Source: Actinomycetota bacterium
GTDB lineage: Bacteria > Actinomycetota > Acidimicrobiia > Acidimicrobiales > JAJPHE01
Length of the DNA stretch: 32,642 nucleotides
Assembly (NCBI GenBank): GCA_021325435.1
Contig: JAJPHE010000108.1
Location: 1 to 32,642 of the forward strand
Direction: 5' to 3'
Shown: positions 1,566 to 6,636 of the stretch, in pieces
How positions within the stretch are numbered: the stretch's first letter is position 1
Layout: each line of letters opens with the position of its first letter
Position numbers and translations under genes: made by a program
Notes under the pieces: generated by a model
Databases searched by the model: none
Seen by the model: only the letters and a program-made list of their open reading frames with translations
What the model was told of the DNA's origin: nothing

Positions 1566-3401
1566 CTACGGGGTGGGTCCGGCGCCCACCAGCATGAGCG
1601 TGTCGAACGGGAAGTCGTCGGCCTCGACCGGCCGGCCCAGCAGGTAGCCCTGGGCCCGGTCGGCCCCCATCTCGCCGAGGAGGCTGAACTGCTCCGGGGT
1701 CTCCACCCCTTCGGCCACCACGTCGAGTCCGAGGGCGTGGGCGAGACCGACCACGCTCCTGACGATCGCCTGGTCGCGACTGTCGTCGCGCAGTCCCGAC
1801 ACGAAGGACTGGTCCACCTTCAAGGTGTCGAACGGCAGGCGGCGGAGATAGGACAGCGAGGAGTACCGGGTGCCGAAGTCGTCGAGGTTGAGCCGCACCC
1901 CCAGCCACTTGAGGGCGAGCATCGCCTCGAGGATGGAGTCGTTTCCTTCCATGAGGACGCTCTCGGTGATCTCGAGGCTCACGTGGGCCGGGTCGGCGCC
2001 GGTCCTCGACAGGATGTCGTAGAAGGTGTCGAACGTCGACGGCACGGTCAGCTGGCGGGCCGACACGTTGATGGCCAGGTTGATCGGCTCCCGCCGGCCC
2101 GCCTTGCGCCGCCAGCTGACCCACTGCCGGCAGGCCTCCTCGAAGACCCACGCTCCGAGCGGGGCGATCATGCCCGTCTCCTCGGCTACCGGGATGAACT
2201 CCGCCGGCCCGATGACCCCGTGCTTGGGGTGGAACCAGCGCACCAGGGCCTCGGCCCCCACCACCCGGCCGTCGGGCACGGAGACGATCGGCTGGTACAG
2301 GACCCGCATCTCGTCGCCGCCGAGCGCCCGCCGCAGGCTGCGCTCCATCTCGAGGCGGGCCAGCAGCCGGCTGCGCAACCCCCGGTCGAACAGCTCCACC
2401 CGGTTGCCGCCCTCCTCCTTGGCCCGGTACATGGCCCAGTCGGCATCGCGTAACAACGTCTCGGGCGTGGCCGAGGCCACCGCGGCCACCGACACACCGA
2501 CGCTGCCGGTCAGCAGCATCTCGTGGCCGTCGTGGCGGAAGGGCGGGGTCAGCGACTCCAGAGCCCGCCCGGCAATACCCACCGCCTCGTCAGCGTCGAT
2601 GACCTCGGCGCAGATGACGAACTCGTCGCCGCCGAAGCGGGCGACGGTGTCCTCCTGGCGAATGGCGGCCCGCAGGCGCGAAGCGGTCTCGGTCAGGACC
2701 CGGTCCCCGACGTCGTGGCCCAGGCTGTCGTTGATCAGCTTGAAGCGGTCGAGGTCGACGAAGATCGCCGCCACCGCGCCGGCGTGGCGGTCGAGCCGGT
2801 TCAACGACCGCTGGATGCGGTCGACCAGCAGGGCCCGGTTGGACAGGCCGGTGAGGGGGTCGTGCAGGGCCTGGTGGCGCAGCTCGCGTTCGAGGGCGCG
2901 CTGCATGGTGACGTCCTTCACCGCCGTCACCACCGCCGGCTGACCCCCGAACTCGAGCCGGTGCGACGACAGCTCGACCTCCATGATCCGCCCCCCCGCC
3001 ACCTGGTGCCGGTGGGTGCCGGAGGGCTGGTAGCTGCTGCCGGCCCGCGTCACCTGGCGCATGAAGGCGTCGACTTCGGCAGTGGGCACGATGTCGGCCA
3101 GCGTCATCTCGAGGAAGCGCTCGCGGGGATGGCCGTAGTGGGCGACGGCGGCGTCGTTGACTTCGAGGAAGCGCAGCGTGTCCGGGTCGAACACCCACAT
3201 GGGCTGCGGGTTCTGGGCGAACAGGACCCGGAAGCTCTCCTCGCTCTGGCGGAGAGCGGCCTCGGCGACCGTGTGGTCATCGGCGAGCGTCTGGTGGCTC
3301 CGCTCTTCGCGCTCGAGCGCCGCCCGCGCCTCGGCGAGCTCCTTCTCGGTGCGCGACAGGCGCTCCTTCAGTCCCTCGTCTGCTGGGCGTCGATCCGCCA
3401 C
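1566..3401 (-). CDS. PAS-GGDEF-EAL cyclic-di-GMP signalling protein
   Basis: A soluble 611-residue protein with no membrane segment. Order: an N-terminal charged coiled coil (about residues 10-50), a PAS domain (about 50-170), a GGDEF domain with intact GGDEF at 257-261, and an EAL domain beginning with EALVRW at 384. The inhibitory I-site RQED sits exactly five residues before GGDEF, so product feedback is likely. The EAL catalytic signatures (EITESVLM, LDDFGTRYSSL, KVDQSFV, AEGVET) are all present, so both diguanylate cyclase and phosphodiesterase activities may be functional. I place the start at GTG 3401 because AGGAGG lies 5 nt upstream. The alternative GTG at 3407 would overlap that site. 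The neighbouring TetR and HisKA-like genes share its strand. Confidence 0.93.
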   Translation of the reverse strand: MADRRPADEGLKERLSRTEKELAEARAALEREERSHQTLADDHTVAEAALRQSEESFRVLFAQNPQPMWVFDPDTLRFLEVNDAAVAHYGHPRERFLEMTLADIVPTAEVDAFMRQVTRAGSSYQPSGTHRHQVAGGRIMEVELSSHRLEFGGQPAVVTAVKDVTMQRALERELRHQALHDPLTGLSNRALLVDRIQRSLNRLDRHAGAVAAIFVDLDRFKLINDSLGHDVGDRVLTETASRLRAAIRQEDTVARFGGDEFVICAEVIDADEAVGIAGRALESLTPPFRHDGHEMLLTGSVGVSVAAVASATPETLLRDADWAMYRAKEEGGNRVELFDRGLRSRLLARLEMERSLRRALGGDEMRVLYQPIVSVPDGRVVGAEALVRWFHPKHGVIGPAEFIPVAEETGMIAPLGAWVFEEACRQWVSWRRKAGRREPINLAINVSARQLTVPSTFDTFYDILSRTGADPAHVSLEITESVLMEGNDSILEAMLALKWLGVRLNLDDFGTRYSSLSYLRRLPFDTLKVDQSFVSGLRDDSRDQAIVRSVVGLAHALGLDVVAEGVETPEQFSLLGEMGADRAQGYLLGRPVEADDFPFDTLMLVGAGPTP

Positions 3402-3486
3402 GCCCACCTCCTGACCGGGCGCCGCTGCGCCCCGTAGTCAGGAATTCGACGTGACCGCTTCCGAATCCTCCGGAATGTCCAGAGCC

Positions 3487-4509: not shown

Positions 4510-6447
4510 TCAGCGGCGGCGGCGGCCGGGCCGCCACTTCTCCTTGGGGACGTTGGCCCGGACCACGAGGACCTCGATCTCCTCTTGGCGGGCCTCGGGG
4601 GTGTCGGCCCCTTCGACATCCACGCTGGTGTCGTCGGGGCGAGCCACGGCGCCGGCCATGTAGGCGTGAGCACCCATCTCCGGGAGCGGTTCAGCTGCGA
4701 GCTCGGATAGATCGCGGGTCGCAACCGGGTCAGCGTCGGCCTCGTCCTTCGGCGCTGACGACAGCCGGGCGATGACCTTGAGCGCTTCGCGCTCCAGCGC
4801 CTCGACCTGGGCCCGGTCGATCTTCTTCGGTGCCGAGGCTGCCTCACCCGACGTTGGTGCGGCATCCGACGCAGAGCCTCCGAGGGTCTTCTCCCGCGGC
4901 GGCATGGCCGGGAGCGACTGCACCGCCCCGAGCTTCTTCAGCTCTTCGGCGAGCGGCCCCGTCACGGACTCGACGGTCAACTCGGCCTCGGGATGCTGTT
5001 CAACCGGTCGATCCGCCGGCGGCTGCGGGCCGTCGGCCTTGACCGCATCCGGCTTGCTCCCCTCCACCTTCCCGGTGGTGGTCGAGCCCGGCCGCGCCCC
5101 GGCTGGAGGCTTCTGGATGGCCGGGCCGAAGTCCAAGGCTTGGGCCAGCATCCGCTGGGCCCGCTCGTTCAGACGGACCCGGTTCGGCAGCGGTGCCGAA
5201 TGCTTTTCGGGCTCGCTGGCCGCGGGCTCCGACGCCGGGGGCTCCACCGCGGGAGGCTCTTCCGGCTGAGCTGCTGCCGCCGCGGCGTTTGCCTTCTCGG
5301 CCGCGGCCAGCTCGGCGTCGACCCGGGCCTTGTCCGCCGCGGCCTTCTCGGCGGCAGCCTTCTCCGCCGCAGCCCTCTCAGCGGCAGCCTTCTCGGCGGC
5401 GGCCTTCTCAGCCGCAGCCTTCTCCGCCGCAGCTTTCTCCGCCTTGGCCTTGGCCGCAGCCGCCTTCTTCTCCGCGGCCGCCTTCTCAGCAGCAGCCTTC
5501 TCCGCCTCGACCCGCGCCTTGTCAGCAGCGGCCTTCTCAGCTTCGGCCCGCGCCTTCTCGGCGGCGGCCTTCTCAGCTTCGGCCCGCGCCCTTTCGGCCG
5601 CGACTCTCTCGGCGGCGGCTTTCGCCTCGGCGGCCTTCTCCGCCGCGGCCCTCTCGGCAGCGGCTCTCTCTGCTTCGGCCCGCGCCTTTTCTGCCGCGGC
5701 CTTCTCGGCGGCGGCCTTCTCCGCCTCCGCCTGAGCAGCCGCCCGGATCCGCTCCGCCTCGGCCCTGGCCTCCATGGCGGCCGCCTCCGCCTCGGCTCGG
5801 GCCTTCTCTGCCGCTTCCTTCTCGGCGGCGGCCTTCTCCGCCTCCGCCTGAGCAGCCGCCCGGATCCGCTCCGCCTCGGCCCTGGCCTCCATGGCGGCCG
5901 CCTCCGCCGCCGCCTTCTCCGCCTCCGCCTGCTCGGCCTCGGCCCGGGCCCGCTCGGCCGCCGCCCGGTCAGCTTCGGCCCGGGCCCGCTCGGCCGCCAG
6001 CCGCTCTTGCGCAGCTCGAGCCTCGGCCGCGGCCCGCTCTGCCTCCTGGCGTTCCGCCTCCTGCCGTTCCGCCTCGGCCTGCTCAGCCGCCGCCCGGTCC
6101 GCCGCCAGCTGGCGCTCGATTACGGAGATCTCCGACTCGCGCGGCTCCACCACCAGGGCGCTGTCCAGCAGGTCGTCGAGCGATCCCACCGGGGGGGCGG
6201 CCGAGGCCGCAGCCGCCGGCACTGCTCCCACCGGAGCTGCGGCGGGCACGGCCCGGGCGGGCGGGGTGCGAGGCGTCAGGCTGTGGGTACGCCGGTTGCT
6301 GGCCCGGCCCATGCCCCGGCGCGAGACGATGGACGGGGCGGCGGGCTCATCGCGGATCACCCCTGCCTGGACCAGGGGCTTCATGCACTGGTCGCACCAG
6401 GTGATCTTGGGGTTGATGCGCGCTCCGCAAGCGCCGCAACGAGCCAC
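4510..6447 (-). CDS. Zinc-ribbon protein with a very long Ala/Glu/Lys helix, unknown function
   Basis: A 645-residue protein. Residues 1-25 form a two-knuckle zinc ribbon (C4xxC7 and C18xxC21). Residues 30-100 are Pro/Ala/Arg-rich linker. Residues ~105-393 are almost only Ala, Glu, Lys and Arg in five-residue units such as AAAEK, AEKAR and AERAA. This resembles the TolA stalk or a charged single alpha-helix more than a heptad coiled coil; at 0.15 nm per residue it would span about 43 nm. Residues 394-645 are Pro/Ser/Glu-rich with short helices and a basic end (KEKWRPGRRRR). There is no signal peptide or membrane segment, so it is probably cytoplasmic. The helix region contains a 92-bp exact duplication. 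I recognise no family; a scaffold or spacer role is inference. GTG start. Confidence 0.8.
   Translation of the reverse strand: MARCGACGARINPKITWCDQCMKPLVQAGVIRDEPAAPSIVSRRGMGRASNRRTHSLTPRTPPARAVPAAAPVGAVPAAAASAAPPVGSLDDLLDSALVVEPRESEISVIERQLAADRAAAEQAEAERQEAERQEAERAAAEARAAQERLAAERARAEADRAAAERARAEAEQAEAEKAAAEAAAMEARAEAERIRAAAQAEAEKAAAEKEAAEKARAEAEAAAMEARAEAERIRAAAQAEAEKAAAEKAAAEKARAEAERAAAERAAAEKAAEAKAAAERVAAERARAEAEKAAAEKARAEAEKAAADKARVEAEKAAAEKAAAEKKAAAAKAKAEKAAAEKAAAEKAAAEKAAAERAAAEKAAAEKAAADKARVDAELAAAEKANAAAAAAQPEEPPAVEPPASEPAASEPEKHSAPLPNRVRLNERAQRMLAQALDFGPAIQKPPAGARPGSTTTGKVEGSKPDAVKADGPQPPADRPVEQHPEAELTVESVTGPLAEELKKLGAVQSLPAMPPREKTLGGSASDAAPTSGEAASAPKKIDRAQVEALEREALKVIARLSSAPKDEADADPVATRDLSELAAEPLPEMGAHAYMAGAVARPDDTSVDVEGADTPEARQEEIEVLVVRANVPKEKWRPGRRRR
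5700..5908. repeat. Internal direct duplication (92 bp, 117-bp offset)
   Basis: Bases 5700-5791 recur exactly at 5817-5908. Each copy encodes the same block containing AAAMEARAEAERIRAAAQ in the long-helix protein. The 117-bp offset is 39 codons, so the frame is kept. The exact nucleotide identity indicates a recent duplication or gene conversion. Confidence 0.9.
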
Positions 6448-6552
6448 ACAGTTGTCTCGGCCGGATTAGGCCCGGCTTGAGTTCACCGTGGCCGGCTGGG
6501 ACGGAAAAGTCCTGGTAGGGGAACCTTCGTTCGGCTGACCGGGCCCTTCCGG

Positions 6553-6636
<84 letters not shown>

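Follow-up and report, generated by a model that had tools for sequence, protein, structure and literature searches.

A zinc-ribbon protein with a predicted 43-nm single alpha-helix, probably behind a WhiG-type promoter, in an acidimicrobial genome

Next to the fhaA/PknB locus of an Acidimicrobiales genome (GCA_021325435.1) lies a gene for a protein that consists, over about 290 residues, almost solely of Ala, Glu, Lys and Arg. Which structure such a protein adopts, and whether its function is linked to the neighbouring genes, was asked in the window, the 32,642 nt stretch of contig JAJPHE010000108.1 analysed here. The ORF (4510..6447, minus strand) starts with GTG and codes for 645 aa, and the zinc knuckle, the charged stretch of about 290 residues and the basic end described in a sequence-only reading were all confirmed. 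Its GC3-GC2 score of 6.6 was the top score among all frames; the longest antisense ORF reached 4.9, and the large antisense ORF over the gene was without Pfam match. The 17 AAAE[KR] repeat units are encoded by 13 DNA versions, with mean differences per unit pair of 2.15 at codon position 3 versus 0.12 at position 1 and 0.38 at position 2, which backs the protein, but the antisense frame reads identical wobble positions. We concluded from the codon-position bias and the silent repeat variation that the ORF is genuine. By computation, the protein has a zinc ribbon head, a rod formed by a charged single helix, and a disordered tail.

The rod (residues 104-393; 5269..6138, minus strand) was analysed by charge statistics, AlphaFold2 and repeat analysis. 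Residues 106-395 comprise 143 Ala, 61 Glu, 29 Arg and 27 Lys, and the period of the rod is five residues (55% identity at lag 5). Pairs of K/R with E at i+4 were counted 46 times versus 12.8 +/- 2.9 in shuffled sequences and pairs of E with K/R at i+3 23 times versus 12.6, while only 9 like-charge pairs at i+3/i+4 were present versus about 50 after shuffling. The orientation E to K at i+4, which is the more stabilising one, was nearly missing (1). Since only 13 of the 290 residues are bulky hydrophobics and there was no power at a period of 3.5 or 7, a coiled coil is unlikely for the rod. AlphaFold2, run on the single sequence, predicted a long helix in two parts (104-261 and 265-393) with pLDDT mostly 77-94 and a dip to 47-64 near residues 250-280. 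When a coiled coil was weighed against a single alpha-helix, charge pairing and the missing heptad favoured the latter. The charge pattern is non-random and is that of a stable single alpha-helix; such a helix would be monomeric. The length of about 43 nm proposed from the sequence also holds, as 290 residues at 0.15 nm each give 43.5 nm.

Stable single alpha-helix (SAH/CSAH) domains are known, e.g., from myosins and INCENP (PMC5378345, PMC4183817, PMC4571873). They are likewise long and charged, lack a heptad, place opposite charges at i+3/i+4, and bridge two ends of a protein. In contrast to these domains, the rod of the window protein is bacterial and very Ala-rich, with five-residue units, and at its ends it has a zinc ribbon and a disordered tail, not a motor or a scaffold for a kinase.

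The tail (residues 394-645; 4513..5268, minus strand) is acidic and mostly disordered, as judged by charge count and AlphaFold2. Its approximately 250 residues are Ala/Pro/Glu-rich with a net charge of -10 and end with RRRR, and short helices were predicted for residues 421-439, 545-563 and 617-631. No transmembrane stretch was found in the 645-aa protein (maximal KD19 value of 1.39, within the Pro/Ala linker) and no signal peptide was seen by eye. Together with the long stable single helix, this supported the earlier assumption of a cytosolic spacer.

We searched for homologues with the masked N-terminus in 59 relatives and with a profile in 395 genomes of the class, and also in named genomes and in viral, phage and plasmid collections. 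None of these, phages included, yielded a full-length homologue, so that the protein remained as unrecognised as it had been called. The sole outside matches of the N-terminal search were CxxC-motif similarities, to zinc-ribbon proteins adjacent to queG-like genes and in a MAG labelled Deltaproteobacteria. The search with the C-terminus gave matches at chance level only; the best one, in genomes of the same family, was discarded because it overlaps a methylmalonyl-CoA-mutase-like gene and contains a stop. The helix alone retrieved nothing comparable from the relatives at E 1e-12. As far as sequence comparison can tell, the protein appears so far unique among the collections searched. In two genomes from another family of the class (L027, L028), a gene for a small zinc-ribbon protein, of membrane type in L028, adjoins a queG-like gene.

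The missing orthologues fit a lineage-specific orphan in which the zinc ribbon alone works, and the helix has grown by slippage and tandem duplication and has a length that is not mechanically critical. The DNA of the rod indeed contains repeats with periods of 15, 36, 51 and 117 bp, among others, including one 117-bp duplication with 92% matches, and since these periods are multiples of three, such length changes stay in frame. Against this origin stands the charge pairing, which is far off the shuffled expectation. The repeats, moreover, differ mostly at silent positions, so the amino acid pattern looks kept. We consider such an orphan somewhat unlikely.

The head (residues 1-30; 6358..6447, minus strand) carries two CxxC pairs (residues 4-7 and 18-21) in the arrangement CxxC-x10-CxxC. 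It folded at a pLDDT of about 91 after a paralogue had been added as second row of the alignment. In Foldseek no single match of the head was significant; the matches were mostly small zinc modules, many of the NZF/RanBP2 type (about 1.1 A over 22 residues). The predicted fold and these weak structural neighbours supported the zinc ribbon. The double zinc ribbon families DZR and DZR_2 (PF12773, PF18912) share the CxxC pairs, but scored only 11.2 and 11.1 bits, below the cut-offs of 27 and 27.3, and the window protein has a single ribbon. The linker that follows (residues 31-103; 6139..6357, minus strand) is first basic and then Pro/Ala-rich, with a short helix at residues 90-97, according to AlphaFold2 and the comparison to the paralogue.

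This paralogue (L025:7909-9129) contains the only further copy of the N-terminal module in the own genome (45% identity over 56 residues, E 6e-12), where an IstB-type ATPase (PF01695) follows it. Weak similarity extends past the ribbon through the linker, where the observed scores were reached by 32 of 2000 shuffles for residues 27-64 and by 19 of 2000 for residues 64-112. Both proteins thus share the zinc ribbon, a basic RRG...RR stretch and an upstream site (see below), but the paralogue carries an ATPase where the window protein has rod and tail. Other IstB-like proteins of the relatives aligned only from about residue 150-180, and the module was not seen in them. The paralogue itself is possibly a domesticated transposition helper.

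No Shine-Dalgarno sequence was seen before the GTG of the window gene, and a scan for a consensus sigma-70 promoter found none. Instead, sequence comparison revealed a promoter-like site, CTCAAG-N14-GCCGA (6457..6481, minus strand), 9 nt before the GTG in a leaderless arrangement. The stretch AACTCAAG...G[CG]CGA is common to the window gene and the paralogue and is located 9 nt before GTG in both, despite 36 differences among the first 90 coding bases. In the genome, CTCAAG-N14-16-GSCGA had 39 matches versus 33 for a reversed control; the pattern itself is therefore not enriched. Its distance from coding starts is the distinguishing feature: a start followed 9-11 nt past the motif at 6 of 30 sites versus 0.30 expected (binomial P about 5e-7, to be read with the 9-11 nt window having been chosen after the first cases and thus partly post hoc; the count covers the first 30 loci, with the two seed genes left out and two overlapping loci counted twice). 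About 40% of the genome sequence was read. Permuted -35 hexamers gave a mean of 0.1 versus 6 for the true one, with some of the stretches having been picked by motif. In stretches not picked by motif, the strict motif had one match (pilT) and two hexamer permutations gave two, while a relaxed CTCA had 5 matches versus at most 2 for permutations.

The six non-seed genes with the site are pilT, a GGDEF-EAL gene, a degenerate GGDEF gene with a zinc ribbon and three others, whose products were named by eye as a zinc-ribbon protein that has a transmembrane-like stretch, a secreted protein resembling sedolisin and a secreted, Pro-rich one encoded beside a sigma-factor gene. A further GGDEF-EAL gene has a TAAA variant of this site upstream. 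Candidate WhiG-type regulon loci with leaderless spacing are L084, L134, L135, L136, L137 and L065.

With the site at hand, a role of the N-terminal module as a nucleic-acid or transposition adaptor can be weighed, in which helix and tail would tether something to DNA. In favour of it, the only paralogue carries an IstB-type ATPase behind the module, the basic stretch is kept in both module-bearing proteins, and small NZF/RanBP2-type zinc modules are binders of RNA or protein. Helix and tail, however, are net acidic (-10 each), and both module genes have the upstream site of the pilT type and no insertion-sequence setting. A match to a histone H1-like DNA-binding protein (NF038053) reached 24 bits, far under the cut-off of 80, with a net acidic matched stretch, and this identity was rejected. 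An adaptor of this kind seems quite improbable to us.

The genome encodes the regulators that would fit the site. WhiG was found with 272.8 bits (cut-off 189.6), and RsiG, the c-di-GMP-binding anti-sigma factor of WhiG, was found at L099:6059-6598 with 78.9 bits (PF22802, cut-off 27) in two matched stretches. A second FliA-like sigma factor is also encoded. Type IV pilus genes including those for PilM and PilT are present, but no flagellin was found in the genome, and a flagellar regulon was rejected on this ground. On a type IV pilus contig, L084:4515-6152 codes for a subtilisin-like secreted protein with a long WDGSS repeat tail. The gene content of our genome suggests a place in the Acidimicrobiia. 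RsiG has been reported in three of four Acidimicrobiales, and for Rubrobacter it is reported that a WhiG-RsiG-c-di-GMP switch drives the genes of type IV pili and of DGC/PDE enzymes (PMC8325347). The candidate genes in our genome show the same mix of pilus genes and DGC/PDE genes behind putative sites of the sigma-28 type. The -10 element is of the expected GCCGA type. The -35 element, however, is CTCAAG instead of the published TAAA, the starts lie 9-11 nt from the -10 element (leaderless), and several zinc-ribbon genes are among the candidate targets. No printed promoter consensus for comparison was found in Actinoplanes FliA papers. On these sequence grounds, the window gene likely belongs to a WhiG-type regulon.

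Since a WhiG-type promoter would be common to the window gene, pilT and genes for c-di-GMP enzymes, a spacer role in a c-di-GMP/RsiG-gated pilus programme appeared as the most likely function. We tentatively propose, with a probability of roughly 40%, that the protein is a cytosolic tether or spacer in the WhiG/RsiG/c-di-GMP type IV pilus programme and not part of FHA/PknB signalling. The zinc ribbon would dock on one partner, the rigid single helix, about 43 nm long, would hold the ends of the protein apart, and the short helices of the tail may dock on further partners. A leaderless promoter of the WhiG (sigma-28 family) type would lead to co-transcription with PilT, the retraction ATPase of type IV pili, and with c-di-GMP turnover enzymes, RsiG and c-di-GMP would gate this programme, and the protein may act as a spacer or scaffold in pilus and surface life. 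The use of the site by WhiG, the gating by RsiG, all partners and the function are what we infer from helix pattern and shared site. A more specific version, which we regard as unlikely, would be a molecular ruler: a zinc-ribbon adaptor under c-di-GMP/WhiG control that spaces type IV pilus or polar parts in the cytosol on a 43-nm helix, and that is one of several zinc-ribbon adaptors (IstB-type ATPase fusion, GGDEF-relic fusion) co-induced from leaderless promoters.

The best descriptions of long natural single alpha-helices come from eukaryotes. If the proposed spacer role is true, the bacterial zinc-ribbon-headed helix would offer a spacer within a c-di-GMP programme that can be tested. It would also suggest that another deep actinobacterial lineage uses the pilus switch known from Rubrobacter, WhiG-RsiG, in a leaderless promoter form that would be searchable.

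The earlier idea of a scaffold for the FHA/PknB envelope and division locus was based on position. In its own genome the window gene does adjoin tRNA-Leu(CAG) (6551..6636, minus strand) and fhaA. This tRNA gene, located outside the window gene at the edge of a variable stretch, is found near fhaA across the order: it adjoins fhaA in 17 of 20 fhaA loci of relatives and lies within 3 kb in the other 3. The genes past the tRNA, however, vary among these loci and none of them corresponds to the window gene (0/20); that it lies next to FhaA/PknB therefore tells nothing about function, and the expectation that homologues remain beside fhaA was not borne out. The window gene is, in addition, on the opposite strand to the fhaA locus with a separate upstream site, and this promoter-like site points to pilT and c-di-GMP enzymes elsewhere rather than to the FHA/PknB neighbours or the adjacent envelope and division genes. 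Such a scaffold is thus very improbable. The tRNA-Leu gene was also considered as an integration site and rejected, as its exact 3' end occurs in the window only at the tRNA itself.

That the protein is TolA- or IF-2-like, or a fragment of either, has next to no probability, since the match of residues 93-348 to the stalk of TolA (phmmer, E 5e-9) is restricted to Ala/Glu/Lys-rich sequence and the TolA anchor, the TolA C-terminal domain and the IF-2 GTPase are all missing. Domain II of TolA is likewise an Ala/Glu/Lys-rich helical stalk, but the window protein has an N-terminal zinc ribbon and lacks both a membrane anchor and the C-terminal domain III; its tail had no Pfam or NCBIfam match, and the PDB match stopped at residue 348.

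A PAS-GGDEF-EAL gene is located near the gene described here (window positions 1566-3407, minus strand). A leaderless site was not found upstream of it, and it is preceded by a Shine-Dalgarno-like AGGAGG.
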